This document shows positions 8,362 through 23,899 of a stretch of 64,000 nt of DNA, in pieces. A model generated the notes under the pieces. It was not told the DNA's origin. It saw only the letters and a list, made by a program, of their open reading frames with translations, and ran no database searches. Numbering within the stretch: position 1 is the stretch's first letter; every line of letters starts with the position of its first letter. Source of the stretch: Corynebacterium haematomassiliense (lineage in GTDB: Bacteria; Actinomycetota; Actinomycetes; Mycobacteriales; Mycobacteriaceae); the NCBI RefSeq assembly GCF_013978595.1, contig NZ_JACDTZ010000001.1, positions 1,674,001-1,738,000 on the forward strand, written 5' to 3'. The position numbers and the translations under genes are program-made.

Positions 8362-9933
8362 ATGCACGCCACGACTTTCACCGCAGACCAGGTCCGGGCC
8401 GCGGAAGCACCGTTGCTGGATTCCCAGTCGCACCCCGACGAGCTCATGCAGTCGGCGGCGCACGCGGTGTTCGAGGCGGCGAAGGCGATGCTTGCGGACG
8501 GCACGGGCGGCCGCACGCTCGTGCTCGCCGGGCCGGGCGGCAACGGCGGCGACGCGCTCTACGCCGGCGCTGAGCTGCTGCTCGCCGGCCACAACGTGGA
8601 TGCGTTGCTGACTGCCGGACACGCCCAAGAGCGGGCCCTTTCGGCGTTCACCAACGCCGGCGGCACCGTGCTGGAACGGCTGCCGGAAGGTTCCGCGGAA
8701 TACGCCCTTGCCATCGACGGCATCACCGGCATCGGCGGATCCGGCGGGCTGCGCGGGGAACTCGCAGACGTGGTTGCATGGCTTCAGGGCGTAAAGGTTT
8801 TGGCCGTGGACGTGCCCTCTGGCGTTGACGCGGACACCGGCGAGGCTGGCGAGCTGCACGTCGCCGCCGACGCCACCGTCACGTTCGGCGGGTGGCGACG
8901 CGCACACGCGCTTGCCCCGGAGTGCGGGGTGCAGCTACTCGCGGACATCGGCCTGCCGGGGCGCCCGCTGCACAGTGCGCTGTTGGAAACCCTGCCGGAA
9001 TGGGCGCATGAGGGCCCTGAGCTCGTGCTTGCCAACCGGGCCGTGCCAGGCCCCGGCCAGTGGCCTAGCTCCCTGATTCCGCTGCCAGCCGCGCCAGTCC
9101 AACCCGTCGAGCCAGGTCCGTACGACGACAAGTACAGCGGGGGAGTAGTGGGCGTCCGCGCAGGTAGTGACGGATATCCGGGTGCCGCGCTACTCGCCGT
9201 GTCTGGTGCTGTACACGCCTCGCCGGCAATGGTGCGCTACGCCGGTCCGCAGGCCGCTGAGGTGGTGCGGGCACATCCGGAGGTCGTCGTCACGCAAACG
9301 CTCGAGGATGCGGGACGGGTGCAGGCCTGGGTGTTCGGCCCTGGCGCCGGCACCGACAAGGCGGCCGCCGCTGAGCTCTCCTGGATCTTGCGCCAGGAGG
9401 TGCCAGTGCTCATCGACGCCGACGGCCTCACCCTCCTCGCCGAACACCCTGACCTGCGCCAACAGGTGGCCAAACGGCAGCAGACTACAGTGCTCACGCC
9501 CCACGACGGCGAGTTCGCGCGCCTCCAGAAAGCGGCCGGAGTTGCCGCGGGAATCCGCTTCGAAGAGACACTCGCCCTCGCTGCAACGCTGTGCGCGACC
9601 ATCGTGCGCAAGGGCCGAATCACCCTGGTCGCGCCGGAGGACGAGCCGCACCTGATCCACGCCGTCGACGCCGGCCATTCTTGGGCTGCGACACCCGGCT
9701 CCGGCGACGTGCTCGCTGGCATCATGGGTGCGCACCTGGCGCTGGCTGCGGCACGCACCCCATACGCCGACGCCGCCATAGCCGCCACAACCACCGGGGC
9801 GGTGACCGTCCACGCGCTCGCAGCGTCACTCGCCGCCGAGACCCCGTTCGGCCCCGCCACCGCGCCGGCTAGCCGCATCGCCGAATTTGTCCGCCCCGCG
9901 ACCGCGCTATGCACCCGGGACACCCATGCTTGA
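8362..9933 (+). CDS. nnr: Bifunctional NAD(P)H-hydrate epimerase / ADP-dependent dehydratase
   Basis: A 523-residue fusion enzyme that repairs hydrated NADH and NADPH. The N-terminal YjeF domain (about 1-210) epimerises the S/R forms and contains GPGGNGGDA at about residues 57-65 and the acidic DVPSGVDADTG loop. The C-terminal ribokinase-like domain (about 240-515) is the dehydratase, with VLTPHDGEF and the ATPGSGDVLAGI nucleotide-binding loop. The ATG at 8362 starts MHATTFTADQVRAAEA, the usual family opening; a GTG three codons earlier is an alternative. It lies 21 nt after the glycosylase and overlaps the next gene by 8 nt, so the three are probably one transcript. Confidence 0.93.
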   Translation: MHATTFTADQVRAAEAPLLDSQSHPDELMQSAAHAVFEAAKAMLADGTGGRTLVLAGPGGNGGDALYAGAELLLAGHNVDALLTAGHAQERALSAFTNAGGTVLERLPEGSAEYALAIDGITGIGGSGGLRGELADVVAWLQGVKVLAVDVPSGVDADTGEAGELHVAADATVTFGGWRRAHALAPECGVQLLADIGLPGRPLHSALLETLPEWAHEGPELVLANRAVPGPGQWPSSLIPLPAAPVQPVEPGPYDDKYSGGVVGVRAGSDGYPGAALLAVSGAVHASPAMVRYAGPQAAEVVRAHPEVVVTQTLEDAGRVQAWVFGPGAGTDKAAAAELSWILRQEVPVLIDADGLTLLAEHPDLRQQVAKRQQTTVLTPHDGEFARLQKAAGVAAGIRFEETLALAATLCATIVRKGRITLVAPEDEPHLIHAVDAGHSWAATPGSGDVLAGIMGAHLALAAARTPYADAAIAATTTGAVTVHALAASLAAETPFGPATAPASRIAEFVRPATALCTRDTHA

Positions 9934-10882
9934 CGCCGTCGTTGTCGGCGCCGGCCAGTCCGGCCTGGCCGTGTCGTACTACCTGCGTAAATATGGCGCT
10001 TCGTTTGTTGTTCTCGACGCCTCCGATGAGCCCGGCGGGGCATGGCCGCACTACTGGGACGCACTGACTCTGTTCTCCCGCGCGGAGTTTTCTAACCTGC
10101 CCGGCTGGCCCATGCCCCACTACGACGGCTACCCGCCGCGCGATCACGTCGTTGAGTATTTGTCCGACTACGAGCAGCGCTACGACCTGCCCATCCGACG
10201 AGGTGAGCGCGTCAAACACGTGCTTCACGACGGCTCCGCTTTCCACCTCAACGGCCACTCCACCCGCAATGTGGTGATGGCCACCGGCATCTGGTCCGCA
10301 CCGTTTGTGCCCTTCATCCCCGGGTCGTTCGCGGGGGAGCAGGGGCACTCGGCTCAGTATCGGCGGCCGGAGGATTTCGCCGGGCAGCGCGTCGCTGTCG
10401 TCGGGGGCGGAAACTCCGGTGCGCAGATCGTCGCGGACCTCGCACTCGGCGGGGTGGACGTGCAATGGTTCACCCGCCGACCGCCCGCGTTCATGCCGGA
10501 GGATGTCGACGGCGAGCAGCTTTTCCGCCGTAACCGCGAGCGCTTCGTCGCCATCTCACGCGGCGAGGACGATCCCGGAGGCGCCGATTTCGGCGGCGAC
10601 ATCGTCCTCGTCCCCGAAGTCCGCCGGGCCCGATCACTCGATCTGCTGGACGCCGAACCCATGGTCGAGTCGTTGGACGAGCTCTCGGATTTCGACGCCC
10701 TGATCTGGGCCACCGGCTTCCGCCCCGCACTGTCTCCCGTGCGGGGGTTGGAGCGCGGCCTGGACACGCCCGGCCTGTTCGTCCTGGGCTTCGACTCGCT
10801 CAACGGCCCCGGCGCCGGGACCATCGGCGGTGTGAGCCCCTTCGCCCGCAACATCGCCCGGCGCATCGCGAGCAAGGGCTAG
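9926..10882 (+). CDS. FAD/NAD(P)H-dependent flavoprotein monooxygenase (ArsO-like)
   Basis: A 318-residue group B-type flavin monooxygenase. The FAD-binding Rossmann motif VVGAGQSGLA is at about residues 5-14 and a second dinucleotide motif VVGGGNSGAQ is near 158-167. The sequence ends with an ATG box-like stretch LIWATGFRP. Similar proteins are called ArsO when next to arsenic genes, but no arsenic genes adjoin here, so the substrate is unknown. The ATG overlaps the last 8 nt of the NAD(P)H-hydrate repair gene, showing translational coupling. It is the last gene before the repeat-rich spacer that borders the copper island. Confidence 0.85.
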   Translation: MLDAVVVGAGQSGLAVSYYLRKYGASFVVLDASDEPGGAWPHYWDALTLFSRAEFSNLPGWPMPHYDGYPPRDHVVEYLSDYEQRYDLPIRRGERVKHVLHDGSAFHLNGHSTRNVVMATGIWSAPFVPFIPGSFAGEQGHSAQYRRPEDFAGQRVAVVGGGNSGAQIVADLALGGVDVQWFTRRPPAFMPEDVDGEQLFRRNRERFVAISRGEDDPGGADFGGDIVLVPEVRRARSLDLLDAEPMVESLDELSDFDALIWATGFRPALSPVRGLERGLDTPGLFVLGFDSLNGPGAGTIGGVSPFARNIARRIASKG

Positions 10883-10934: not shown

Positions 10935-10975
10935 TTTTACGCCGAATAGCTGGGCCCTTGTAGCTGGAAACAGCC
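10935..10975 (+). repeat. Repeat D, copy 1
   Basis: This 41-bp block matches 11176-11216 at 37 of 41 positions. It contains GCCGAATAGCTGG followed by CTTGTAGCTGG and ends ACAGCC. It shares the core AATAGYTGG with the other repeat type in this spacer. Confidence 0.75.
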
Positions 10976-11013
10976 CACCGACCCAGACATCCCGGCTCGA
11001 ATTTGGTGGGTGC

Positions 11014-11175: not shown

Positions 11176-11216
11176 TTTTATGCCGAATAGCTGGAACCTT
11201 GTAGCTGGGAACAGCC
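11176..11216 (+). repeat. Repeat D, copy 2
   Basis: Same orientation as 10935-10975, with four differences in 41 bp. Together the two copies bracket the A-type copies. Confidence 0.75.
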
Positions 11217-11412
11217 GACTGGACCTCGGCCCCCACAGTAGCCGGGCCCCCCGGCCGCGGCCTGCAAGCGCACGCCGTGGGCGCCGGCTCGCCTGGCCCG
11301 TTGAGCGAAAGTGGGCGCATCGCGGGCGGACGGCGTGTCGGTGAGGATCAGGCGTGGAGGGCGTCGTGAGGGCTTCCCGCCGTGTCCTGGAACGCGGCCT
11401 CGGGGTCCGGGA

Positions 11413-11718
11413 TTAGGAGCGGACGAGTCGGTTGATGGCGTCGGTGGCTTCCTGTATCTTCTCGACGGCCGCCTCGTCGCTGAGCTTCGCTGCGTCGAGC
11501 ACACAGTGCTTGAGATGATCGTCGAGTAGACCGGTCGCGACCCCCTGGAGGGCGCGGGTCAGGGCGGATACCTGGGTGAGGATGTCGATGCAGTATTTCT
11601 CTTCATCGATCATCTTCGCGATCCCTCGGGCTTGACCCTCAATGCGCTTCATACGGCCGAGGTAGCGCTCCTTGTCGTTGATGTATCCGTGCTGATGAGA
11701 ATCGGTGTCGACAGACAT
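11413..11718 (-). CDS. csoR: CsoR-type copper-sensing repressor (first copy)
   Basis: A 101-residue all-helical metal-sensing repressor of the CsoR/RcnR family. The Cu(I) ligand set Cys-His-Cys is complete: Cys43 (KYCIDIL), His68 and Cys72 (DDHLKHC). These proteins bind GC-rich inverted repeats and leave DNA when Cu(I) binds. ATG 11718 is preferred because the AAGG site is then 8 nt away; ATG 11724 is also possible. It starts about 10 nt after the CopB-type ATPase and is the last gene of the YdhK-copB-csoR operon, so it probably represses its own operon through the operator at 14668-14685. Confidence 0.92.
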   Translation of the reverse strand: MSVDTDSHQHGYINDKERYLGRMKRIEGQARGIAKMIDEEKYCIDILTQVSALTRALQGVATGLLDDHLKHCVLDAAKLSDEAAVEKIQEATDAINRLVRS

Positions 11719-11728
11719 GGGCATGTCC

Positions 11729-13966
11729 TTACTTCTGGCGTTCCAGGACGGAACGCGTGCTGGCTTCGGGTGTGAGGTCGATGCGCCGCAGGAGTTGGGC
11801 GTTGAGCGCGACGACCACGGTGGAGGCCGACATCAGGATCGCGCCGATCGACATTGGCAGGACGAATCCCACCGGTGCCAGGATGCCGGCCGCAAGCGGC
11901 ACGGAGATGAGGTTGTATCCGGCGGCCCACCACAGGTTCTGCTTCATCTTACCGTATGCGCGTCGTGAGAGCTGGATGATGGAGAGCACCGACCGGGGGT
12001 CGGAGCTGGCCAGGATCACCCCGGCCGAGGCGATGGCGACATCGGTGCCGGCGCCGATCGCGATGCCGACGTCGGCCTGGGCCAGTGCCGGGGCGTCGTT
12101 GACGCCGTCGCCGACCATGGCGACCTTCTTGCCCTCGTGCTGCAGTTGGGCGACCTTGGCGGACTTGTCCTCGGGGCGGACGCCGGCGAAGACGCGGTCG
12201 ATGCCGAGCTCCCGTCCGACCTCGTTCGCCACGGCCTCGGCGTCGCCGGTGATCATGACGACCTCGACGCTCAGGGCGTGGAGGGCGTCGACGGCGTTGC
12301 GGGATTCGGGGCGGATCTCGTCGGCGAGCTTGAGGCCGCCGACCACCTGGCCGTCGCGGAGGACGTGCAGGATGATCGCGCCCTCAGAACGCCATTCCTC
12401 GGCTGTGCCGACCTCGTGCTGGCCGGTCTCCTCAAGCAGCCGGGGGCCGCCGACGCGGACCTCCTGGCCGGCGACAGTCGCGGTGACTCCGACGGCGGGC
12501 GAGGATGAGAAGCCGCTGGCCTGCTGAAGGGCGAGGCCCTTGTCCTTGGCGGCGGCGACGATGGCCTTGGCGAGCGGGTGCTCGCTGTCGGCCTCGGCCG
12601 AGGCCGCGAGGGCGAGGACCTGGTCGGCGTCGAGGTCGCCGGTCGGTTCGACGCCGGTGACGGTGGGCTCGCCCTTGGTCAGTGTGCCGGTCTTGTCGAA
12701 GAGCACTGCGTCGACCTGCCGCATCGACTCCAGGGCGAGGCGGTCCTTGACCAGCACGCCGCCGCGGGCGGCGCGCTCGGTGGCGATGGAGACCACGAGC
12801 GGGATCGCCAGGCCGAGGGCGTGGGGGCAGGCGATGACGAGTACGGTGATGGTACGGACCACGGCCTCGTCGGGCATGCCGATGAGCGTCCAGACGACAG
12901 CGGTGACCAGCGCCGCGCCGAGAGCGAACCAGAACAGCCAGGCCGCGGCCTTGTCGGCGATCCGCTGGGCGCGGGAGGAGGAGTTCTGGGCCTCGGTGAC
13001 GAGCCGGTTGATCCCGGCCAGGGCGGTGTCGTCGCCGGTGGCGGTGATTTTCACCCGCAGGCCGGAGTCGGTGGCGACGGTGCCGGCGGTAGCTGTCTCG
13101 CCCTCGCCCCGAGAGACCGGGCGGGACTCGCCGGTGATCATGGACTCGTCCATGTCGGCGCGGCCGTCGACGATGGTGCCGTCGGCCGGAACGCTGCCGC
13201 CGGGGCGCACGATCACGACGTCACCCACAACGAGGTCGGCTGGGGCCACCTTAACGACGTTCTCGCCCTCGACGCGCTCGGCCTCGTCGGGCAGCAGTGC
13301 AGCCAACGAGTCGAGCGCCGAGGTGGTCTGGGCCAGGGAGCGCATCTCGATCCAGTGGCCCAGCAGCATGATCACGATCAGCAGCGCCAGCTCCCACCAG
13401 AACTCCAGCTCGTGATGGACAAGCCCGAGGGTCGCGGCCCAGGAGGCGAAGAAGGCCACCGTGATCGCCAGAGCGATGAGCAGCATCATCCCGGGCTTGC
13501 GGGACTTCAACTCGCTGACGGCGCCGGTGAGGAAGGGCCTGCCGCCCCAGACGTACATGACGGTGCCCAGTACCGCGGCGACCCAGCCCGCCCAGCCGGG
13601 GACCTCGTAGCCCAGCAGCATGGAGAACATCGGCGAGAGGGTGACCGCGGGGATGGCGATGACGAGGTTGATCCAAAACAGCCGGCGGAACTGGCCAACG
13701 TGGTCCCCGTGGCCGCCATGGCCGCTGTGATCTCCGTGGCCGCCATGGCCGCTGTGATCTCCGTGGACACCGTTCTCATCGAGGCCCGTGTGGTCTGAGT
13801 GCTGCCCGTGGTTCATGGCGTGGCCCTGGTGTCCAGTGTGCTGGCCCTCGTGCGTGCCGTGCGCCTCCGCCGAGGCGTGTGCGGACACAGACCCGTGGTG
13901 ATGCTCGCCGTGAGCGGGTGCATCGGTTCCGTGACCGTGGTGCTGGTGTGAGTTCGGGTCCGTCAT
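11729..13966 (-). CDS. copB: P1B-type heavy-metal ATPase, CopB class (CPH)
   Basis: A 745-residue copper-translocating ATPase. The first 90 or so residues are extremely His-rich and contain no CxxC metal domain. The transmembrane metal site is Cys-Pro-His (residues 380-382), the signature of the P1B-3 group that exports Cu(II) or Cu(I)/Ag(I). The phosphorylated residue is Asp424 in DKTGT, with TGES in the actuator domain, SEHPLAKAI in the nucleotide domain and [12 protein letters not shown] in the hinge. The His tail includes a duplicated HGDHSGHGG unit encoded by a 27-bp tandem repeat. It lies 63 nt downstream of the YdhK-type lipoprotein gene and just upstream of csoR, in one operon. Confidence 0.94.
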   Translation of the reverse strand: MTDPNSHQHHGHGTDAPAHGEHHHGSVSAHASAEAHGTHEGQHTGHQGHAMNHGQHSDHTGLDENGVHGDHSGHGGHGDHSGHGGHGDHVGQFRRLFWINLVIAIPAVTLSPMFSMLLGYEVPGWAGWVAAVLGTVMYVWGGRPFLTGAVSELKSRKPGMMLLIALAITVAFFASWAATLGLVHHELEFWWELALLIVIMLLGHWIEMRSLAQTTSALDSLAALLPDEAERVEGENVVKVAPADLVVGDVVIVRPGGSVPADGTIVDGRADMDESMITGESRPVSRGEGETATAGTVATDSGLRVKITATGDDTALAGINRLVTEAQNSSSRAQRIADKAAAWLFWFALGAALVTAVVWTLIGMPDEAVVRTITVLVIACPHALGLAIPLVVSIATERAARGGVLVKDRLALESMRQVDAVLFDKTGTLTKGEPTVTGVEPTGDLDADQVLALAASAEADSEHPLAKAIVAAAKDKGLALQQASGFSSSPAVGVTATVAGQEVRVGGPRLLEETGQHEVGTAEEWRSEGAIILHVLRDGQVVGGLKLADEIRPESRNAVDALHALSVEVVMITGDAEAVANEVGRELGIDRVFAGVRPEDKSAKVAQLQHEGKKVAMVGDGVNDAPALAQADVGIAIGAGTDVAIASAGVILASSDPRSVLSIIQLSRRAYGKMKQNLWWAAGYNLISVPLAAGILAPVGFVLPMSIGAILMSASTVVVALNAQLLRRIDLTPEASTRSVLERQK
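13708..13761 (-). repeat. 27-bp perfect tandem duplication in copB
   Basis: Two identical 27-bp units (13708-13734 and 13735-13761) encode the nine-residue unit HGDHSGHGG twice. It is an in-frame expansion of the His-rich metal-binding tail and probably varies in copy number between strains. Confidence 0.9.
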
Positions 13967-14029
13967 CGTTCTTCTCCTTCGTCATCGAGCCATGCCGCTC
14001 ACCCGGTCGCCGGGCAAGCGAACGTCGGC

Positions 14030-14638
14030 TCAGGGCGCTGGTTGGATCTCGCTCTCGACGACCCACTTGTGGTTCGTCATCTTCATGCCGTCCGTCTCGT
14101 AGTCGACCATGTAGACCGTCTCATCGGTGGACGAAGCGATGGTGGCCCTCGCGCCCTCCATGCCCTCCATGTGCTTGGCGAGCAGCGTCACCGCTGTGCC
14201 ATCGGTCAGGCGCTCGTCGCCGGCATCCTCGATTTCTTCCTGCACGACCCACTTGTGGTCCGTGACGGGGTCGCCGCCACCTGCGTTAGTGTAGTTCACG
14301 GAGTACGTGTACGTGTCGAATGCGCCGGAGATCGTCGCTGTCGCACCGTCCATGCCTTCCATGTGGTCGGCCGTGAGCTGTACCTCTGTGCCGACCGGGT
14401 ATGTGGGGTCACTGGCTTCGGCGATACCCTCGGGTGCCGGTCCGCCGTCCATCGGGTGCTCCATCGAGTGATCCATTTCCTCATCTCCGCTTTCTGCATT
14501 GTCGCCGCCGTGGCCCTGCTCCTCAGTAGCCGAAGGGTCGGTCTGCTGGTCTTCGTCTGCTCCGCTGCTGCAACCGGCGAGCACGAGTGTCACTCCGAGC
14601 ACTCCTGCTGCCAGCCCTGCTCGCAGTCTCCTCTGCAT
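14030..14638 (-). CDS. YdhK-family lipoprotein (DUF1541 repeats)
   Basis: A 202-residue secreted lipoprotein. It has a signal peptide with lipobox LAGC (Cys23), then an acidic Met/His-rich stretch (about 45-65, with MDHSMEHPMD), then two copies of the YdhK/DUF1541 unit at about 80-137 and 145-200. Each unit carries HMEGM and ends HKWVV. Members of this family often accompany copper-efflux genes and may bind copper outside the membrane through Met/His residues. ATG 14638 follows AAAGGAGC. It is the first gene of the YdhK-copB-csoR operon behind a promoter containing a CsoR-like operator. Confidence 0.88.
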   Translation of the reverse strand: MQRRLRAGLAAGVLGVTLVLAGCSSGADEDQQTDPSATEEQGHGGDNAESGDEEMDHSMEHPMDGGPAPEGIAEASDPTYPVGTEVQLTADHMEGMDGATATISGAFDTYTYSVNYTNAGGGDPVTDHKWVVQEEIEDAGDERLTDGTAVTLLAKHMEGMEGARATIASSTDETVYMVDYETDGMKMTNHKWVVESEIQPAP

Positions 14639-14663
14639 GTCAGCTCCTTTCATCATGACACCT

Positions 14664-14692
14664 ACCCTATACCCCCCAGGGGTACTAGTCAA
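14664..14692 (-). promoter_or_regulatory. Promoter with CsoR-type operator for the YdhK-copB-csoR operon
   Basis: On the minus strand TTGACT (14687-14692) and TAGGGT (14664-14669) are 17 nt apart. The spacer holds the inverted repeat GTACCCC-TGG-GGGGTAT (14668-14685, extending into the -10 region). TACCCC/GGGGTA arms are the hallmark of CsoR operators. Repressor binding there would block polymerase. Seen: repeat and hexamers. Inferred: CsoR binding. Confidence 0.75.
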
Positions 14693-14735
14693 GGATTGCG
14701 CGTTGTACCGGCGTGAATCGATCGAATTGTCCTTC

Positions 14736-15065
14736 TCAGAGGGACTGCTCATGTTGGATGGGCAATGCGGCGATGAGGGGATGGTCGAAGCCCGCCGGTC
14801 CGATCTTCGCGGCTCCACCGGGAGAACCAAATTCGTCGAAGAACTCGACGTTGGCCTTGTAGTAGTCAGACCATTCGTCGGGCAGGTCGTCTTCGTAGTA
14901 GATGGCCTCGACGGGACAAACCGGTTCGCAGGCTCCGCAGTCAACGCATTCGTCGGGATGGATGTAGAGCGAGCGTTCGCCCTCGTAGATGCAGTCGACA
15001 GGACATTCGTCGATGCAGGCGCGGTCCTTGACGTCCGCGCAGGGAAGCGCGATCGCATAGGTCAT
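14736..15065 (-). CDS. fdxA: Ferredoxin, FdxA type (7Fe/8Fe)
   Basis: A 109-residue bacterial ferredoxin with two iron-sulphur cluster motifs. The first is built on Cys9, Cys17, Cys21 and Cys25 (CIDECPVDC). The second is [11 protein letters not shown] with Cys40, Cys43, Cys46 and Cys50. The C-terminal extension (about 60-109) is typical of actinobacterial FdxA. It transfers single electrons to partner enzymes such as cytochromes P450 or oxidoreductases. It lies last in the csoR2-oxidoreductase-MFS-fdxA array, 89 nt after the MFS gene. A chromosomal FdxA normally sits elsewhere in corynebacteria, so this copy probably came with the island. Confidence 0.92.
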
Positions 15066-15154
15066 GGCTGCTCTTCTTGGTCGGGTGCGGTTCGGCGGCG
15101 AGAGTCGGTGGGGAGTTCGGAGAAGTCGTCAGTCTCTGCCGGATCTGCGGCCGG

Positions 15155-16339
15155 CTAAGGAATGCGCAGGCGTAGGACGGTGGCTGCAAGGCTGAGGGCG
15201 ATGATGATCGCACCGAGGACTGTCATCGTTCCTGACAGGGTGAGTACCGGCACGAGCAACCCGGCGACGATGGTGGGCACGCCGAATGCCAGGTAGGCGA
15301 CCGTGTAGATCACAGCCATCACGGCGGCGCGTTCCGACGATGCCGTGTGGGGCATGAGTGTGCGCAGCACCCCGAGGAACGCTGTGCCGAACCCGGAACC
15401 GACGATCGCGACCGACACGACGTAGGCCGGGTAGGAACCGAGTGCGAGGGCGACGATGCTCGCTGCGGTGCCGAATGCCAGGGCGCTGGTCGCATACAGG
15501 CTGATGGTGCGGGCGGAACGCCGCTGCAGGACGGACGAGGCGGTGATTCCGGAGATCGCCAGTGCGAAGATGACGATGCCCGCGTGGGTGTGCGTGGAGC
15601 CCCCGAGCTCACTGCCGACGAGGCCGGCTCCGAGCGCGAGGAAGAGTCCGTTGGTCGCCCACCCGGCGATAATCGCGGGCACACCGGCGGTGAACATGCG
15701 GCGCAGGTGCAGTGGCACCATAAACCGCGGGCGGAGGTCGCCACGTCGTATCCGGGTCTTGGGGACCAGTTCCGGTGTGCTCCACACCGTCGCTGCCACG
15801 GTGAGGAAGGCGAGCACGAGCGGGCCGAAGACCGCAGCTGTCGGTTCGGGGGTGAGATCGAGGAGCAGCGCAGCACCGAGTGCCCCGGTCCCGAGACCGA
15901 TCATCGGCCCGATCGTGTTCCACAGGGCTGCGATGTTCGGATGCGACGGCGGCTCGAAGTCGATCATCATCGCCGACAGGGCCGGGATGAGCAGACCCGC
16001 TGCGAGTCCTTGCAGAGCGCGGGCGACCAGGAGTGTCGCGAGGCTGTCGGCGAACCAGAACATGGCCAGGCTGAGTGCCAGCGCCAGGGAACCGGCGGTT
16101 ACGACCGGACGTCGGCCGATGTGATCGGAGAGCGGTCCGAGGTAGAGCAGCGCGGCCAGGAGGGTGAAGGTGTAGACCGCGAATACGAGTGTGGTGGCGA
16201 CGGGGACGAGTCCGAGCTGTTCTGCGATCTGGGGGTAGAACAACGACGGCGCGCTGGCAGCCGCCATCATGAGAATGGTCGCTGCCATCGCGAGCGCGAA
16301 ACCCCGCCGCGGGATCTGCCTCGTATAGTCGCCCGCCAT
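15155..16339 (-). CDS. MFS transporter, DHA-type efflux
   Basis: A 394-residue membrane protein with about 12 predicted helices. It has the MFS motif A-like loop GPLSDHIGRRP between helices 2 and 3 (about residues 69-79), and an antiporter motif C-like Gly-rich helix 5 (GPMIGLGTGALGA). It resembles drug/proton antiporters. It starts 3 nt after the stop of the FAD oxidoreductase gene, so the two are translated together. The substrate is unknown. Its place in an array led by a CsoR-type repressor suggests export of a metal complex or a redox-active compound. Confidence 0.88.
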   Translation of the reverse strand: MAGDYTRQIPRRGFALAMAATILMMAAASAPSLFYPQIAEQLGLVPVATTLVFAVYTFTLLAALLYLGPLSDHIGRRPVVTAGSLALALSLAMFWFADSLATLLVARALQGLAAGLLIPALSAMMIDFEPPSHPNIAALWNTIGPMIGLGTGALGAALLLDLTPEPTAAVFGPLVLAFLTVAATVWSTPELVPKTRIRRGDLRPRFMVPLHLRRMFTAGVPAIIAGWATNGLFLALGAGLVGSELGGSTHTHAGIVIFALAISGITASSVLQRRSARTISLYATSALAFGTAASIVALALGSYPAYVVSVAIVGSGFGTAFLGVLRTLMPHTASSERAAVMAVIYTVAYLAFGVPTIVAGLLVPVLTLSGTMTVLGAIIIALSLAATVLRLRIP

Positions 16340-16342
16340 CGT

Positions 16343-17488
16343 CTATGCCTGCAGGCCGTGGAGCTGCTGACCCCACTGGTAGACGGTGCCGACCGCGTCG
16401 ATGCCGGTGACGCCGACGACGGTGCCGTCGGTCTCGTGGCGCACGATGAACTCCTCGCCGGCTTCCACCTGGGCGTCTGCACCAGCGGTGTACCCGACTC
16501 CGGAGATCATCTGACCGTAGACCAGCGCCATGTAGGGGCTGCGCGGCAGGTAGGTGCCCGGATCGTCGCTGATGTCGAGGTCGTGCAGTGCGGCCTGTGC
16601 GGCGTGCGTGCCCTGCGCGGCGGCGTCTTCCCAATGGTCGATGCGCCAGACGCCCAGTGCTTCGTCGTGATGCGTAGCTACACCTCCGGCGGCGTAGACG
16701 TGGTCTGCTGCGGCACGGAGGCGATCATCGACGTCGATGCCGTTCGTCCACGGCGACGGGGCTGCGGGCGTCGTGCCGAGCGCAACGAGGAGTAAGTCGG
16801 CCACGATGCGTTGATCGTCGTCGAGGGTGATGGCAACACCGGATTCTGTTTCGTCGACATGCTGGAGAGTGCGACCGAATCGAGTCTGCACCTTGGCGGC
16901 ATGGTCAGCGGCGAGGCGCTCAGCCACCGGCGCCCCAAACGCTCCGATGCCGGGAACAGAACTGCGAGAGACCAGCATGACCATGTGTCCGTCGGCTTGC
17001 AGCGACGAAGCGGTCTCGGCTGCGATGATTCCGCCGCCATAGATCGTCACTCGCGCCGGCCGTGCCAGGCTGGTCAGCAGATCGCGGATACCCATGGCAT
17101 CTTCCAAGGAGTGCAGAGCAGTGACCCGGCCTTGTCCGACGTCGTCGCCTTCGAGTACACCCGCGGGCAGAGAGCGGGGCACGCTCCCTGTCGCGACAAT
17201 GAGCGCGTCGTAGGAGACCTGCGCGCCGGAGGTCAGTTGGACCCGCTTCGCCGTAGTATCGACATCGAGCACGGTGTCGGCGATGACCTCAATCTGAGGT
17301 AGCGGGAGCTTGATCATCTCCGGCGGGGTCGGGCCGAACGCGATTCCTTTGATGAGCATTCGCGTGTAAGGCGTCTCCCCGGTGCGGGTCACCATCGTCA
17401 CCCGGACGTCGTCACGTGTGGCGAGAGTGCGGGCGGCTGCGGCTCCGGCTGCTCCTGAACCGAGGATGAGGACGTGTTGTGTGGTCAT
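16343..17488 (-). CDS. FAD-dependent pyridine nucleotide-disulphide-type oxidoreductase (ferredoxin reductase-like)
   Basis: A 381-residue flavoprotein. The FAD motif LILGSGAAGAAAA is at about residues 7-19, the NAD(P)H motif IYGGGIIAAETA is near 150-161, and a flavin contact follows at HVYAAGGVA. No CxxxxC redox disulphide is visible, so it is closer to ferredoxin or rubredoxin reductases than to disulphide reductases. The ATG at 17488 follows AGGAG with 7-nt spacing; a longer frame upstream overlaps csoR2 and is rejected. It starts 47 nt after csoR2 and precedes an MFS gene and fdxA. It may supply electrons to that ferredoxin (inference). Confidence 0.85.
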   Translation of the reverse strand: MTTQHVLILGSGAAGAAAARTLATRDDVRVTMVTRTGETPYTRMLIKGIAFGPTPPEMIKLPLPQIEVIADTVLDVDTTAKRVQLTSGAQVSYDALIVATGSVPRSLPAGVLEGDDVGQGRVTALHSLEDAMGIRDLLTSLARPARVTIYGGGIIAAETASSLQADGHMVMLVSRSSVPGIGAFGAPVAERLAADHAAKVQTRFGRTLQHVDETESGVAITLDDDQRIVADLLLVALGTTPAAPSPWTNGIDVDDRLRAAADHVYAAGGVATHHDEALGVWRIDHWEDAAAQGTHAAQAALHDLDISDDPGTYLPRSPYMALVYGQMISGVGYTAGADAQVEAGEEFIVRHETDGTVVGVTGIDAVGTVYQWGQQLHGLQA

Positions 17489-17535
17489 AGGGAAACTCCT
17501 GGGCTGCAGGTCGTGATCGATTTGGTGTGCGGGCG

Positions 17536-17889
17536 TCAGGAGCGAACGAGACGGGCGATGGCCTCGGATGCCTCGCCGAGCCTCTGCTCGCTGACTGGTC
17601 CACCGGCGAGGGCGGCGTCGAGGACGCAATGCTTGAGGTGATCGTCGAGCAGTCCGAGGGCGACGTTTTCGAGTGCCCTGGTGGCTGCGGAGATCTGGGT
17701 GAAGATGTCGATGCAGTAGCGGTCCTCATCGATCATCCGATCGATGCCGCGGATTTGGCCTTCGAGGCGCCGCAGGCGATTGCGGTACGTCGCCTTGTCG
17801 CTGATGTATCCGTGGACGGACGGATCGCCGTCGCCTCCCGCCGGGCAGGTGTCGATGTGAGGTTCGGTCATTGAGGTCGGGGTGGTCAT
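17536..17889 (-). CDS. CsoR-type metal-sensing repressor (second copy)
   Basis: A 117-residue CsoR-family protein with the Cu(I) triad Cys59 (RYCIDIF), His84 and Cys88 (DDHLKHC). The N-terminal extension carries an additional Cys15 and several His/Asp residues. It is clearly related to the CsoR at 11413-11718 but is not a recent duplicate: the C-termini differ. It heads the array oxidoreductase-MFS-fdxA. It may control that array or the copZ operon upstream, whose promoter has two CsoR-type boxes. Confidence 0.9.
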   Translation of the reverse strand: MTTPTSMTEPHIDTCPAGGDGDPSVHGYISDKATYRNRLRRLEGQIRGIDRMIDEDRYCIDIFTQISAATRALENVALGLLDDHLKHCVLDAALAGGPVSEQRLGEASEAIARLVRS

Positions 17890-17908
17890 GTCGGTTCGCT
17901 CCGATCAG

Positions 17909-17947
17909 GTGCCGGGGTGCCGCAGCGGTGCCGCGGCACCCCGGCAC
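17909..17947 (-). terminator. Perfect 15-bp stem between the YHS gene and csoR2
   Basis: GTGCCGGGGTGCCGC (17909-17923) pairs perfectly with 17933-17947 around a 9-nt loop. It begins 10 nt after the YHS-gene stop. There is no T-run, so it may act as a weak terminator, an mRNA stabiliser or a processing site that separates copA expression from the csoR2 array. Confidence 0.6.
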
Positions 17948-17956
17948 GCTGGTGGA

Positions 17957-18208
17957 TTACGCCATGTTGGCGGCGTATTTGGCGGGGTCCGAATCAAATG
18001 CGGGGCCGCAGCCGGCGCAGCAGAAGTAGTAGCGCTCGCCCTTGAAGTCGCGGTAGAGGCCGGCGGCCTCGGCGGTCTTCTTGCTGACCGGGGTGCCGAC
18101 CATGACCGGGCAGGTGGTCATGTCATCGGCGCCCCCGCCGAGCAGGTTCTCGCGTCCACCGTTCTCGGCGGCGGGGTTAGTCTCGTTCGTGCTACAGCAG
18201 TTGCTCAT
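17957..18208 (-). CDS. YHS/TRASH-domain metal-binding protein
   Basis: An 83-residue soluble protein. A Cys-Cys pair stands at the N-terminus (MSNCCSTNE). From about residue 32 the YHS-like domain has TCPVMVGTPVSK and YYFCCAGCGPAFDSDP. The cysteine pattern CP...CCxxC binds soft metals in YHS/TRASH proteins. It lies 83 nt downstream of copA in the same direction, so it is likely a cytoplasmic copper buffer or donor for that operon. The ATG at 18208 follows AAGGA. The in-frame sequence further upstream consists of a duplicated spacer, not protein. Confidence 0.87.
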   Translation of the reverse strand: MSNCCSTNETNPAAENGGRENLLGGGADDMTTCPVMVGTPVSKKTAEAAGLYRDFKGERYYFCCAGCGPAFDSDPAKYAANMA

Positions 18209-18223
18209 TTTCTGGTGTTCCTT

Positions 18224-18283
18224 CTGTATCGGATTCGTATGGATGGGTGGGTTCTGTATCGGATTGGTATGGATGGGTGGGTT
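18224..18283 (-). repeat. 30-bp tandem duplication between copA and the YHS gene
   Basis: Units 18224-18253 and 18254-18283 differ at one position (C/G). They fill most of the spacer after the copA stop. Read as RNA each unit is purine/pyrimidine-biased rather than self-complementary, so a recent slippage duplication is the simplest explanation. Confidence 0.85.
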
Positions 18284-18291
18284 CTCGTTCG

Positions 18292-20562
18292 TCACTTCGT
18301 GGCGACGCTCTTGAACCCGCGCAGGCGGAGGCTGTTGCCGACGACGAAGACGCTGGAGAACGCCATCGCCGCGCCTGCGAGCATGGGGTTGAGCATGCCC
18401 AGCGCTGCGACTGGGATCGCGGCGGTGTTATAGGCGAATGCCCAGAACAGGTTGGTCTTGATCGTCGAAAGTGTCTTCCGAGACAGACGGATCGCGTCGA
18501 CCGCGGCCCGCAGGTCGCCGCGGACCAGGGTGATGTCGGAGGCCTCGATCGCGACGTCCGTGCCGGTGCCCATCGCCAGGCCCAGATCGGCCTGCGCGAG
18601 CGCGGGGGCGTCGTTGACGCCGTCGCCGACCATCGCGACGATCTTGCCCTCGCCCTGGAGACGGGTGACGACGTCGACCTTGTCCTTGGGCAGCACCTCG
18701 GCGATGACCTCCTCGATGCCGACCTCGGCGGCGATCTGGCGGGCCACGGCCTCATTGTCACCGGTGAGCAGCACCGGGGTCAGGCCGATCTCCTTGAGCC
18801 CGCGGATCGCCTCCGCGCTCGTGGGCTTGACGGTGTCGGCGACGACGAGGATGCCGCGCGCAGCACCGTCCCAGCCGATCGCGACGACCGTCTTGCCTTC
18901 ACCCTCAGCTTGAGCCTTCGCCCGTGCGACCTCCGGAGAGAGCTTCTGTGACCAGTCGGCCAGCAGCGACTCGCGTCCGACGACGACCGGGGTGCCCTCG
19001 ACGATGCCCTGCACGCCCTTGCCTTCAACATTGGCGAAGTCCTCGGGCGTGGGCAACTGGCCGACTTCCTGGGTGGCGCCCTTGGCGATCGCCTGCGCGA
19101 TCGGGTGCTCCGAGGAGTCCTCCAACGCACCCGCGAAGCGCAGCAGCTCGGCACGGTCCACACCGGATTCGGTGATCACATCTGTCAGGGTCATCTTGCC
19201 GCTGGTGACGGTACCGGTCTTGTCGAGCACGACGGTATCGACCTTGCGGGTGGACTCCAGCACCTCTGGGCCCTTGATGAGGATGCCCATCTGCGCCCCG
19301 CGGCCGGTGCCGACCAGCAGCGCGGTCGGAGTCGCGAGTCCCAGCGCGCAGGGGCAGGCGATAACGAGCACGGCGACCGCTGCGGTGAACGCGGCGGCGA
19401 CGGGGAATCCGGCTCCCAGCCAGGCGCCGAGGGTGATGAACGCGACGACGATGACGATCGGCACGAACACGCCGGAGATCGTGTCAGCCAGACGCTGCAC
19501 CTCGGCCTTGCCAGTCTGCGCATCCTCGACGAGCTTCGCCATCTGCGCAAGCTGCGTGTCCGAACCGACACGGGTCGCCCGCACGACAAGGCGGCCGCCC
19601 GCGTTGACGGTGGCACCGGTGACCGAGTCGCCCTCGCGGACCTCGACCGGTACGGACTCGCCGGTGAGCATGGAGGCGTCCACCGCGGAGGAGCCGGAGA
19701 CCACGATGCCGTCGGTGGCGATCTTCTCACCCGGACGAACGATGAACTCGTCGCCGACCTGGAGGTCAGAGGTGGGGATCTTCACCTCAACGCCGTCGCG
19801 GAGCACGGCGACTTCCTTCGCGCCGAGCTCCAGGAGGGCGCGCAGCGCGGCCCCGGCCTGGCGTTTGGAGCGCTTCTCGAAGTAGCGGCCGGCGAGGATG
19901 AACATCGTCACGCCCGCGCCAACTTCGAGATAGATGTTCGCCGCGCCATCCGAGGGAGCGATCGTGAACTCGAACGGGTGCGTCATCCCGGGTGTGCCAG
20001 CGGTTCCGAAGAATAGTGCGTAGACGGACCACAGCAGTGCGACCGAGGTGCCCATCGAGATGAGTGTGTCCATCGTCGCGGTACCGTGCTTGAGGTTCGT
20101 CCATGCGGCCTTATGGAACGGCCAGGCTGCCCAGATGATCACCGGGGCGGCAAGCGCGAGTGAGGCCCACTGCCAATATACGAACTGCAGTGCGGGGATC
20201 ATGGCCATGGCGATCACGGGAACCGTGAGCACAATGGCGCCGACTAGCCGATGGCGCAGCGAGGTGAGCTCAGTGTCTTCCTCCTCCCCGGCCTCGGTCT
20301 CCGACGTGTTCGCCGTGGTGCCCTTGGGCTTGGGCAGCGCAGCCGTGTAGCCGGTCTTCTCGACCTCGGCGACCAGCAGGCCCGGATCGTAGCCGGCAGG
20401 CACGGTGACCTTGGCCTTCTCGGTGGCGTAGTTGACCGTGGCCGCGACGCCCTCGAGCTTGTTCAGCTTCTTCTCGATCCGGTTCGCACAGGAGGCGCAG
20501 GTCATCCCGCCGATCTCCAGCTCGATGTCCGGCCCACCGATGGGGGGCGCTAATGTACTCAT
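18292..20562 (-). CDS. copA: P1B-type copper ATPase CopA (CPC)
   Basis: A 756-residue Cu(I)-exporting ATPase. One N-terminal heavy-metal domain carries MTCASC with Cys22 and Cys25. The membrane metal site is Cys-Pro-Cys (403-405), the mark of the P1B-1 Cu(I)/Ag(I) group. Asp447 in DKTGT is phosphorylated; [14 protein letters not shown] and [12 protein letters not shown] complete the set. It takes Cu(I) from CopZ and moves it out of the cytoplasm. The operon order is copZ, secreted metal-binding protein, copA, YHS protein, behind two CsoR-like boxes. It is only distantly related to the CopB-type pump in the same island. Confidence 0.96.
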
Positions 20563-20609
20563 CCTCTTCCTTCTCTCTTCATCTCTCGTGCGACGCCAGG
20601 CCCTGCGGG

Positions 20610-21551
20610 TCAGTGGCCGCCGGTATGCGAATCGTCTGTCTGCGAGCCGTCACCATGCTCGGCGTCGATCACGAACTCGGCGGTGTGCACCTGCCCATCG
20701 ACCTGGAAGTCCAGGTAGAGCAGGTAACGGTCGGCGGTCGGGGCCTCCGCTGCGAATCCGATCTCGGGTCCGGCCGTGTCCCTGGCCTGGGGCTCGTCGC
20801 CCTCGGCGTGGACGTGCAAGTAGGCGAGGTCGCCTTCGCGCAGCGCCACCAGGTGGCCAAACGCGCCCAGGTAGGGCTCCAGCGTGGTCACCGGCTGACC
20901 GTCGCGCTCGACCGAGATGGTGAGCTCGCTTGAGGTGCCGGCGGTAAGGTCGCCATTCAGGGAGACGGTGTATCCGTCGACCTCGTCGGTGGTCTGTGAC
21001 TCGGTCTCAACAGGGGCGAAGTCGCCCGCCACCTCGACGGCGCGAGTCAGGGTGATCCCTTCGGCTCCCTCGCCCTCGGGTGTGAAGTCGGCGTACACGC
21101 GGTAGGTGCCCGCCTCGTCCCAGGTCCACGGCACCGACCAAGTGCCTGTGCTCGTGTCAAGCTCGGGGTGCACGTGCTGGAAACCAGTACCATCGGTGCG
21201 AACGGCGATCAGATGCAGGTCCTTCTCGTGCGCGGTAGTGTACTCGGTCACCGCTTCGCCGGACTCGTCGAGGATCTGGAAACTCAGGTCTCCATCCTCG
21301 CCTGCAGCCGTGGGAGCCTGGACTGGGGAAAGTACGAAGCCGTCCGCGCTTGCGGAGACCCCGTTCAGAGTGGGCTCCGCAGTTTCTTGCGCAGCGCCGC
21401 CGTGTCCTTCACCGTGTGTGTTCACGTCACTTCCTTCTGCCCATGCTGCTACGAAGCTGTCAGGAATGACGGCGCCGGCAAGGCCGAAGGCCCCGCCGAA
21501 CGCCACCACCAGCCCGGCCCCGTAGAGCGCAAGCCGTCCTCCGGCCTTCAT
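20610..21551 (-). CDS. Secreted heavy-metal-binding-domain protein of copper operons
   Basis: A 313-residue exported or membrane-anchored protein. It has an N-terminal signal/anchor segment (about 5-32), a His-rich patch (NTHGEGHGG, about 44-52), and two beta-sandwich-like repeats. Each repeat contains a metal-binding-looking HLIAVRTD...FQHVHPEL or [16 protein letters not shown] stretch. The C-terminus is again His-rich. Similar proteins sit between copZ and copA in many actinobacteria; their role is thought to be extracellular copper binding. The ATG overlaps the copZ stop (TGATG), so translation is coupled. Confidence 0.85.
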
Positions 21552-21760
21552 CAGACACGCACCGCCGAGTAGCCGGCCTCCTCGACCGCCGCGAGGACCT
21601 TGGCATCGTCAATCTCGCCCTCGGCGGTGACGTTAAGCTTGCCGGTCTGCGCGCTGACCTGGATGTCCTGGACGCCGGGGATCTCACCGACTTCCTCGCG
21701 GACCGACATCTCGCAGTGCCCGCAGGTCATGCCCGTCACCTGGTAATTGTTCGAAGCCAT
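21551..21760 (-). CDS. copZ: Copper chaperone CopZ
   Basis: A 69-residue heavy-metal-associated domain with the Cu(I) site MTCGHC (Cys13 and Cys16). The ferredoxin-like fold fills the whole protein. It carries Cu(I) to the N-terminal domain of CopA and buffers it in the cytoplasm. The ATG at 21760 follows a strong AAGGAGG. First gene of the copZ operon, transcribed from the promoter region with CsoR-type boxes at 21786-21836. Confidence 0.94.
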   Translation of the reverse strand: MASNNYQVTGMTCGHCEMSVREEVGEIPGVQDIQVSAQTGKLNVTAEGEIDDAKVLAAVEEAGYSAVRV

Positions 21761-21785
21761 TATGTATCCTCCTTGTGTCTCTGTA

Positions 21786-21836
21786 GTACCCCTACCGGGT
21801 ACCTGTACAAGTCAACAGTATACCCCTGGCAGGTAT
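21786..21836 (-). promoter_or_regulatory. Promoter region with two CsoR-type operators upstream of copZ
   Basis: Box 1 is GTACCC-N5-GGGTAC (21786-21802). Box 2 is TATACCCCTGGCAGGTAT (21819-21836). Between them TTGACT (minus strand, 21810-21815) is a consensus -35 element; the -10 element is unclear and falls within box 1. Repressor at box 1 would cover the start-site region, box 2 lies just upstream of -35. Confidence 0.7.
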
Positions 21837-22134
21837 TCCGCAAGAAGGGGGTGGTCGTATGAGCCACATCGCACGCGTGCTGCAGACGATGGCTGGAGCG
21901 TCCGACATGCGCCTCGTGGCGAAACGATGCTGCGGGGCGACCCGCTGGACGGTGTCGCTGCGCGTCGGAGAGTAGTGGTCCCGGTCTAATGAGAACCGTG
22001 GACTTCCTTGCCACGTCGGCGAAGGCAGTGACGACCGGTACGGGCCGGACACCACCAAACACCGATCAGTCGCTGGTGCTCATGGTACGAAGCCGGCCAT
22101 GTCAACTGGATTCGCAGGCGTTCGAGATTGGTGA
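21837..22134. other. Spacer at right edge of the copper island
   Basis: About 300 bp without a convincing gene. Short frames on both strands lack ribosome sites and family resemblance. GC content falls from here towards 23,000, marking the change from copper genes to the plasmid-like segment. Confidence 0.5.
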
Positions 22135-22404
22135 GTGGAACAGACGAATCCCAGCTGGAGTGCTCAGTTACGCCGGAGACAGTTAGCAGCCCCTGTGCAG
22201 GCATTAGTCAGGAAAAATAACCCCTCACAGGTTGCTGGCACTGACGCTTTTAAAAACAAAGGGTTCGGCGCACTCGTGCAGGCGGCCCGGGAGTCTCAGG
22301 AAGTCTTCGAAACCATCACGGCAGATCCAGGCAACCTCAATAAGTTCCTGGAGGTGCTAGCGCACATGATTGTCGCCGCCAAGGACGAGCAGCAGTCAAA
22401 GTAA
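22135..22404 (+). CDS. Unrecognised short protein, possibly the 3' fragment of a larger gene
   Basis: An 89-residue frame. The C-terminal 60 residues (from about NPSQVAGTDAFKNKGFG to the stop) have the composition of a real soluble helical protein, while the first 30 residues do not and may be read-through of an unrelated junction. No ribosome site precedes the ATG. No family was recognised. Its place beside the plasmid replicase fragment suggests a plasmid or phage remnant. Confidence 0.4.
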   Translation: MEQTNPSWSAQLRRRQLAAPVQALVRKNNPSQVAGTDAFKNKGFGALVQAARESQEVFETITADPGNLNKFLEVLAHMIVAAKDEQQSK

Positions 22405-22552
22405 TCATCACGATAGGCACCCTGTATTAGTGATTACCGGTAGGGGTGCCCTCATCTAGTAGTTACGTGGCGAGAACGGATGATTACCGTAGGAGTTGCA
22501 CTCTTAGTACTCTGAAGTGTTCGTATTCGATTGACTCAGAAATCATTAACGA

Positions 22553-22592
22553 GTTCTAGCCCTGCCTGAGGGGCGAGAGGCAGGGCTAGAAC
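22553..22592. terminator. Perfect 15-bp inverted repeat
   Basis: GTTCTAGCCCTGCCT (22553-22567) pairs with 22578-22592 around a 10-nt purine-rich loop. It is the strongest hairpin in the plasmid-like segment and may be a bidirectional terminator or part of a replication-control region. No T-run follows. Confidence 0.55.
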
Positions 22593-23017
22593 TTATACAT
22601 AGTGGCCGTTCGGGGGGAAGCAGCCTATAACCATTGTGCGGAGCTTCGACAAAAGTCACAAGGGATTGTTCACTCCAGTGAGCATTGGCAGTGAGGAAGA
22701 AAGTACTGGGGTTTATCTATGTGGTTTCTCTTTAAAGGCTCTTTGGTTATCTGTAGTCCTGGAGGCTGTGGTGCTTGGAGTAGTCCTGGTTGCCTCGGTG
22801 ACAACCAAGCCTTTGATTTGGACGGCAGTACACATGAGTACCGCTAACCCCTATGATCCATAGTCGATGTCTTGTATCTATGCAGGATACTCTGCGGTTT
22901 TAGCATTTGTTGCAATATATTTCAAACACTGTTACTGCAGGTAAAACATATCTTTATGTGTGTCTCGCACAAAATGACAGTCATGTGTTTTACAGTTGAG
23001 AGATACTAAAGACGAAA

Positions 23018-23073
23018 GAAGGCCACTCGGCGGCAACCAAGTGACCTTCGCTTATCACCCAGTAGTAGCTGGG
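23018..23073 (+). promoter_or_regulatory. Structured leader of the replicase gene
   Basis: Two hairpins can form before the start codon: GAAGGCCACT (23018-23027) with 23040-23049 (nine of ten pairs), and CCCAG (23058-23062) with CTGGG (23069-23073). The second includes the ribosome-site region GGGGG. Plasmids of this replicase type often regulate Rep through antisense RNA and leader structure; that role here is inference. Confidence 0.45.
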
Positions 23074-23080
23074 GGAAAGC

Positions 23081-23899
23081 ATGTGCATGATTCTATCTAA
23101 TGATTCCTCTCCGGGCACTTTGACCGGTGCGCGTGTTGGTACGCCATCTAGAGTGCGCCAGGATTGCGCAGGTCTAGATGATACTCCGGCAAGTCAGCTT
23201 GACCGGGAAAAACTTCTCCAGCATCTTGGGCGTGATGCGCTACACGGTTCTATCAGCCGTGACTTTCAAAGTGCTTACCGTGTCGTGGTAGATGAAGAAA
23301 CCGGTAAGAAGCGCAGCGTTCCGAGACTTTATCGCACTGATTCGGAGAAACTCGGTCGATGTGAATACGTCATGCTGACGAATAAGCAATATTCTGCGGT
23401 TATGGTTATTGATGTTGACCAGCCCGGAGAATCTGGAGGCCATCCAGTTCATCTCAATGCTTATGTTAAAAGCGTTATCTTCGCCCTTGTCCAGCGAGGC
23501 ATTGGGCCAGCATGGGCCGGGATTAATCCGCTAAGTGGTAAAGCTCAGTTTATTTGGCTGATTGACCCGGTGTATACCGGCAAAAATAAGCATTCCAGCA
23601 ATATGGAGCTGCTAAAAGCTACGAGCCAGGAGTTAGGCGCTCTTCTCGCACATGACCCGCACTTTGCGCACCGTTTTAGTCGTAGTCCTTTTTATACTGG
23701 TAAGTCAGTAGAGACCAGCTACCGCAAACAGCAGAAACCGCAAAAGAGAACGCCCCCCCCCGACAGCCACCCCAGACGCATAAAAAACGTCGATACCTTT
23801 GAATTACAAGCGTGTAACTTACCCACTGACAAGCGCAAATGCCCCTTAAAGGGCGTATCAAACCCCAAAACTTACCTTTTATTTTGCTTAGAAAGTTGA
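23081..23899 (+). CDS. repA: Plasmid replication initiator (ColE2/pfam Replicase type), C-terminally truncated
   Basis: A 272-residue frame. Up to about residue 215 it matches corynebacterial plasmid replicases of the Replicase family: the opening TPSRVRQDCAGL, CEYVMLTNKQYSAVMV, then IDVDQP, GIGPAWAGINP, FIWLIDPVY and HRFSRSPFYTGK. These proteins prime theta replication at the plasmid origin. After SYRKQQKPQKRTPPP, at a C-run near 23750, the sequence becomes unrelated and the usual C-terminal primase-CT and HTH part is missing. The gene is thus broken. Codon use and low GC differ from the flanking chromosome. It marks an integrated plasmid relic next to the copper island. Confidence 0.8.
   Translation: MCMILSNDSSPGTLTGARVGTPSRVRQDCAGLDDTPASQLDREKLLQHLGRDALHGSISRDFQSAYRVVVDEETGKKRSVPRLYRTDSEKLGRCEYVMLTNKQYSAVMVIDVDQPGESGGHPVHLNAYVKSVIFALVQRGIGPAWAGINPLSGKAQFIWLIDPVYTGKNKHSSNMELLKATSQELGALLAHDPHFAHRFSRSPFYTGKSVETSYRKQQKPQKRTPPPDSHPRRIKNVDTFELQACNLPTDKRKCPLKGVSNPKTYLLFCLES

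Follow-up and report, generated by a model that had tools for sequence, protein, structure and literature searches.

A flavoprotein oxidoreductase as a candidate accessory of copper export in a plasmid-linked island of Corynebacterium haematomassiliense

The copper operons closest to the one described here are the CsoR-controlled copZA1 and copZA2 operons of Streptomyces lividans (PMC3902906). With these it has the operator type, copZ and copA in common, and it adds an exported histidine-rich protein (p313), a small YHS-domain protein (YHS), a flavoprotein oxidoreductase (FADox), a major facilitator superfamily (MFS) exporter and a ferredoxin (fdxA). The operon lies in a 64-kb stretch of the 2.58-Mb genome of Corynebacterium haematomassiliense (contig NZ_JACDTZ010000001.1), and this whole stretch is called the window below. 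Mobile extra copper-export genes are likewise reported as copXL in Staphylococcus aureus, with another gene set and in other hosts. For FADox (16343..17488, minus strand; Pyr_redox_2 family), the closest described enzymes are the oxygenase-coupled NADH-ferredoxin reductases (ONFR) BphA4, putidaredoxin reductase (PdR) and toluene dioxygenase reductase, which share with it the whole-length fold and the Rossmann motifs for FAD and NAD(P). RclA and MerA belong to the same flavoprotein superfamily, and RclA of Escherichia coli is reported to reduce Cu(II) to Cu(I) with NAD(P)H (PMC7527725); unlike FADox, which has no conserved cysteine, both carry a CXXXXC redox pair (motif as given in the same paper). 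A literature search over mostly titles and abstract openings gave no paper on this flavoprotein in a copper operon. We propose, with a probability of roughly 40%, that FADox is a copper-regulated, NADPH-dependent accessory of a copZ-p313-copA-YHS export operon that works without redox cysteines. This reading draws on the linkage of FADox to p313 and of YHS to copA, on CsoR-type boxes, on the cysteines of YHS, and on the fold and NADPH-type residues of FADox.

An earlier note on this DNA had described csoR2, FADox, the MFS gene and fdxA as four consecutive genes on one strand, with 3 nt between FADox and the MFS gene, inside a copper island. Their coordinates, strand and families were all reproduced, the gap is exactly 3 nt, and family scans confirmed the setting, with copZ, two P-type ATPases, YHS, a YdhK/DUF1541 protein and two CsoR genes. 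The four minus-strand frames are, however, embedded in a longer same-strand string, copZ-p313-copA-YHS-csoR2-FADox-MFS-fdxA, which is followed by ydhK, copB and csoR1 down to position 11413. At its head stand copZ (21551..21760), encoding a heavy-metal-associated copper chaperone, and p313 (20610..21551), which had no Pfam or NCBIfam match and serves here as the marker of this copper-cluster type. They are followed by copA (18292..20562), a P-type ATPase with a heavy-metal-associated (HMA) domain according to family scans, and by YHS (17957..18208), assigned by family scan and alignment (all minus strand). Four cysteines of YHS (C33, C63, C64 and C67) are invariant in 11 aligned relatives.

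Among 396 genomes of one order, FADox (E<=1e-40, called strong below) was found in 14, p313 in 54, where it is kept beside copZ/copA, and both in 12; in all 12 the two genes lie within 5 kb of each other (Fisher p 1e-9, kinship uncorrected). Since 12 of the 14 FADox genomes share p313 nearby, FADox is nearly confined to this copper-cluster type. For the wider neighbourhood, 27 FADox loci were compared with 38 p313 loci, drawn from the 42 genomes that have p313 without strong FADox, with flank lengths unequal between the two sets. The 27 comprise 14 loci of one set of 24, from which ten near-copies were left out (L005-L008, L010, L011, L013-L015, L023), plus 13 further loci (L050-L062). They are not all independent: L050 is close to L052, L053 to L055 and L022 to L027, and one genome apparently contributes two islands, L053 and L009. 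Weak FADox relatives (32-37%) occur in three of the 38 comparison loci (L108, L111, L114), and FADox itself is in pieces in L059 and L026.

YHS stands behind copA in 22 of the 23 FADox loci whose sequence covers copA and the region downstream of it, versus 11 of the 38 p313 loci; L051, where the sequence ends too early, was not counted. In five loci YHS, FADox, copB and csoR are contiguous. An MFS gene of whatever type was seen at 23 of the 27 FADox loci versus 12 of the 38 p313 loci, three of these 12 being weak (Fisher p 2e-5, kinship uncorrected). The ferredoxin gene is found in 4/27 FADox loci (L004, L009, L012, L016), all of one branch, and in 0/38 p313 loci. By these counts, the constant neighbours of FADox are copA and YHS, the pump is a frequent one and the ferredoxin is peripheral. 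The gene order recurs in other actinobacteria and is no chance arrangement: FADox is tied to copZ-p313-copA-YHS, often with an MFS gene, and fdxA joins them in one branch. The CsoR-led module of ferredoxin and oxidoreductase put forward in the earlier note is thus not the natural unit, its genes being part of the longer string from copZ to fdxA; its electron-transfer pair is supported within one branch only.

We searched the whole window for the CsoR-type box TACCCCNNNGGGGTA with at most two mismatches and obtained three matches, two of them before copZ (21821..21835 with two mismatches and 21787..21801 with one) and one before ydhK (14670..14684, no mismatch). A box pattern with a 4-base spacer gave no match in the window, and the 3-base spacer is the right one. 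The 15-mer at 21787 is the same as the core of a CsoR-box given for Bradyrhizobium liaoningense (PMC5057107). The copZA1 and copZA2 operators of S. lividans, reported to be bound by CsoR, contain TACCCCCTAGGGGTA (PMC3902906), a 15-mer that seven of the compared loci share (L012, L016, L024, L052, L053, L055, L056). Perfect boxes numbered 34 in the 27 FADox loci (416,986 bases) versus none in each of five Markov replicates. Each of the 23 FADox loci that include copZ has a box no more than 70 nt from the copZ match; a box also precedes FADox itself in L058 and L061 (by 48 and 67 nt), and in L024 a perfect box stands before an MFS-Usp-FADox string. CsoR-type control of the copper operon is therefore supported by the sequence, in the form of predicted operators at its promoters. 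Copper control and conserved linkage, on whose joint absence the earlier note would have dropped its idea, are both partly supported by the sequence, with fdxA linked in one branch only.

The regulator gene next to FADox does not appear to lead this unit. The product of csoR2 (17536..17889, minus strand) is a repressor of the CsoR/RicR type (PF02583, 95 bits; NCBIfam RicR model, 135.5 bits, below its cut-off of 175), and its start is placed six codons later in the RefSeq copy of Rothia amarae. Cu(I) is held in CsoR by a Cys-His-Cys ligand set, and by eye this set is present in csoR2, as the C of RYCIDI and the H and C of DDHLKHC. Contrary to the description as CsoR-led, csoR2 sits 67 nt behind YHS and has no box of its own upstream in the search with up to two mismatches. 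We rejected csoR2 as head of its own operon, there being no box and 20 nt between its start and a GC-rich hairpin (17909..17947, minus strand) found by folding the 67-nt gap. This gap folds with -50.7 kcal/mol (z -7.7), a value that none of 200 shuffles equalled. Stems of varying sequence occupy the hairpin position in many, not all, relatives, even where no FADox follows; perfect stems of at least 10 pairs exceeded chance at 11 of 21 FADox loci and at 3 of 10 others, while the remaining loci have an imperfect stem or none. A terminator scan did not flag the hairpin, whose stem has no T run, and a promoter scan found no sigma-70-like site. The hairpin is likely an attenuator or the end of the copZ-YHS unit, and csoR2, FADox, the MFS gene and fdxA would be reached by read-through past it. 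Further upstream, the interval between copA and YHS holds two head-to-tail 30-nt repeats (18222-18281). Taken as a whole, the operon is, on these predictions, a variant of the CsoR-controlled copper operon with an uncharacterised redox arm.

The structural model of FADox (pLDDT 91.4, pTM 0.90) has two Rossmann domains and an interface domain arranged as in BphA4 and PdR. PdR, toluene dioxygenase reductase and BphA4 match it with Z scores of 39-40 over 360-370 residues at a root-mean-square deviation of 2.5-2.9 Å; the top scores are 40.1 to 3lb8 (370 residues, 2.5 Å) and 39.5 to BphA4, with AIF at about 37. At the position of BphA4 E175-T176-Q177, the window FADox reads S-R-S and the family consensus A-R-S. 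The arginine at this strand end is present in 21 of 24 FADox sequences, with serine in the rest, so that none has the acidic residue that gives ONFR enzymes their NADH preference. According to PDB titles, the same strand end was engineered to E175A/T176R/Q177G in BphA4 and to D177A/A178R/M179S in an NADPH oxidase. Because the residues of FADox match those of the engineered mutants, its cofactor is likely NADPH. Invariant residues include H126, H285, H295 and W286, and H273 is kept in 23 of 24 sequences. FADox was rejected as a disulfide or mercuric-type reductase, as no cysteine is conserved among the 24 sequences and no alignment column holds more than three.

The sequence match to BphA4 stops at profile position 304, while it continues to 376 for 6tuk and to 374 for 3lxd. 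Reductase_C, presumably the Pfam name of the C-terminal reductase domain of ONFR enzymes, is neither among the 12 families of the window FADox nor among the 25 of 26 families shown for the 24 members. FADox further differs from ONFR enzymes in its A/S-R-S residues, in lacking the aspartate of the GD motif, in having no oxygenase in sight nearby and in having a ferredoxin near it in few loci, although a partner encoded at a distance may exist. In view of the NADPH residues, the GD loss and the BphA4 match ending at 304, we therefore call it a distant relative of the ferredoxin reductases, outside the oxygenase-coupled group.

How FADox might serve the operon can be sketched as follows. Cu(I) would release CsoR, and the operon would be read through the hairpin behind YHS. 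FADox would then take electrons from NADPH and pass them via FAD to an acceptor, by which it may keep copper, free or on YHS or CopZ, in the Cu(I) state, which is what CopA exports. The MFS pump would be a separate arm, most likely expelling an organic compound made harmful by copper, and fdxA would have been added beside the pump in one branch as a spare electron carrier and a replacement for a copper-sensitive ferredoxin. Candidate acceptors are copper, a ferredoxin and an organic compound, and we place copper narrowly first. Copper is suggested by the YHS/copA linkage, with RclA as a precedent for flavin-driven Cu(II) reduction, albeit one with a cysteine pair; a ferredoxin is suggested by the fold and by fdxA in one branch; an organic compound is suggested by the MFS linkage and TetR neighbours. 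The three roles named in the earlier note, namely re-reduction of a copper-damaged iron-sulphur protein, reduction of a metal complex before export and handling of a copper-binding compound, are all possible. Of these, metal reduction before export fits the YHS/copA linkage best, and handling of a copper-binding compound fits the MFS linkage.

Several points weigh against a role of FADox in copper export. Copper in the cytosol is for the most part already Cu(I), so a reductase is less needed. FADox has no recognisable copper-binding signature, and the enzymes that share its fold pass electrons to a small protein rather than to a metal. The aspartate of the GD motif, which contacts the ribityl chain of FAD, is present in BphA4 and absent in all 24 FADox sequences (G in 20, A in 3, S in 1), so that even FAD binding is something we infer. 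At the level of the loci, L061 is the lone case of copA without YHS, FADox occurs without copA in the DNA compared of L024, L025 and L060, and no CsoR-type box was found near FADox in L060. A more specific form of the proposal is that FADox is the first of a class of copper reductases that lack redox cysteines, are driven by NADPH and are partnered with YHS, in which Cu(II) bound to the YHS cysteines is reduced and Cu(I) is passed to CopZ and CopA; this we regard as unlikely.

Somewhat doubtful, and the best of the alternatives, is that FADox is a ferredoxin reductase for iron-sulphur repair. Electrons would pass from NADPH through FADox to a 7Fe ferredoxin and serve to rebuild copper-damaged clusters; the carrier would be the island fdxA where present, as a spare for a copper-sensitive protein, and a housekeeping ferredoxin elsewhere. 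That the best structural relatives of FADox are ferredoxin reductases speaks for it, as does fdxA itself (14736..15065, minus strand). By family (NCBIfam FdxA_Actino, 185.9 bits vs a cut-off of 125) and cysteines, this is an ordinary actinobacterial 7Fe ferredoxin; like Mycobacterium smegmatis FdxA (2v2k), it scores above the family cut-off and has the cysteine set, and all eight of its cysteines are common to the host copy. It is unlike the usual actinobacterial FdxA in its copper operon setting and in being a second copy, 75% identical to the other FdxA of the genome. In L009, L012 and L014, fdxA begins 4 nt before the MFS gene ends, and the two genes likewise overlap in a Micrococcus luteus plasmid; the window MFS stops 31 residues earlier than in those three loci, leaving a gap of 89-90 nt to fdxA. 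Between the window and L016, FdxA is 90% identical while FADox is 73% identical. From the overlap and these identities, fdxA is a kept operon member within its branch. In yeast, raised levels of the ferredoxin Yah1 are reported to give copper hyper-resistance (PMC5654725), which makes a spare ferredoxin sensible as a copper defence. Against iron-sulphur repair stands above all the rarity of fdxA beside FADox. A motif scan near FADox in other loci gave no convincing ferredoxin, the further hits resembling chance reading frames, and enzymes of the ONFR type are usually paired with ferredoxins other than the 7Fe type. An fdxA-oxidoreductase pair, as originally worded, would mislead, the stable partners being YHS and copA.

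Less probable still is a joint role of FADox and the MFS pump in detoxifying an organic compound that reacts with copper (a quinone, ionophore or chelate), which FADox would reduce and the pump expel. The MFS gene (15155..16339, minus strand; MFS_1, PF07690) encodes a member of the drug-exporter family, with a DHA-type motif in the alignment. The excess of MFS genes at FADox loci favours such a role, and three or four MFS types are involved: the window type occurs in 9/27 FADox loci and 0/38 p313 loci, and other FADox loci have DHA2-type or further MFS genes. Even the most distant relatives (L060/L061) have FADox next to an MFS gene. In L051, L054, L056 and L057 FADox comes after a TetR-type gene that diverges from a pump gene, and DHA2 pumps are preceded by CsoR-type boxes in seven loci. 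On the other hand, four FADox loci (L018, L019, L020, L062) have no MFS gene, DHA2 pumps and TetR genes also accompany copZ without FADox (L096-L100, L112), and the MFS alignment revealed no special site. The MFS protein as a metal importer or exporter was rejected on its sequence, in which no His or Cys is invariant; its relatives elsewhere are, by eye, ordinary-looking DHA1 pumps beside regulator-like genes, which also argues against metal transport.

That fdxA, the MFS gene and FADox ride along on a plasmid-borne island with no joint role in copper tolerance is very improbable: the island moves between genera as a block, so near-identical copies share passengers, but the linkage persists down to 40-55% identity in differing local arrangements, and CsoR-type boxes stand at separate promoters.

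The block 11250..23713 is identical to part of the Rothia amarae plasmid NZ_CP062957.1 (100% over 12,464 bp), and because of this identity we take the copper island to be recently moved and plasmid-linked. Island copies in Rothia terrae and three Corynebacterium records have at least 99.75% identity over the aligned length, an identical FADox protein is encoded by 4 of 200 further genomes of the genus, and versions of FADox that are 88-91% identical occur in Brachybacterium, Janibacter, Brevibacterium, Micrococcus, Gulosibacter and others. Downstream of fdxA, the island holds ydhK (14030..14638), a YdhK/DUF1541 lipoprotein gene by family scan; copB (11729..13966), a histidine-rich P-type ATPase whose RefSeq start lies about 50 codons later; and csoR1 (11413..11724), a second CsoR-type repressor by family scans (all minus strand). 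At its right edge, position 23713 falls inside a gene called replication initiation protein in the Rothia plasmid (window gene 23081-23899), so the window version of this gene would be a different or cut form; GC content is low at 22-24 kb of the window. The left boundary has 44-nt direct repeats that are 89% alike (10935-10978 and 11176-11219), and just beyond it lies an ArsO-like flavin monooxygenase (9887-10882; 354 bits vs a cut-off of 425). In the Rothia plasmid, genes for carboxymuconolactone decarboxylase, CueP and thioredoxin come after the island (L154 1957-5191; L004 ~15049). The decarboxylase gene recurs next to several islands, and in L004 and L021 a CsoR-type box precedes it. Broken copA, FADox or copB matches were seen in Dermacoccus and Gulosibacter islands (L026 4931-13297; L013).

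Copper export operons are usually pictured as a sensor, a chaperone and pumps. The presence of FADox beside copA and YHS, with CsoR-type boxes, in many genera of actinobacteria points to a redox step missing from this picture. If the more specific form of our proposal is true, these actinobacterial islands would have a dedicated redox step within a copper-export operon, which a ferredoxin reinforced at a later stage in one branch. The island also crosses between Corynebacterium, Rothia, Micrococcus, Brachybacterium and other genera and is thus a current route by which copper tolerance travels.

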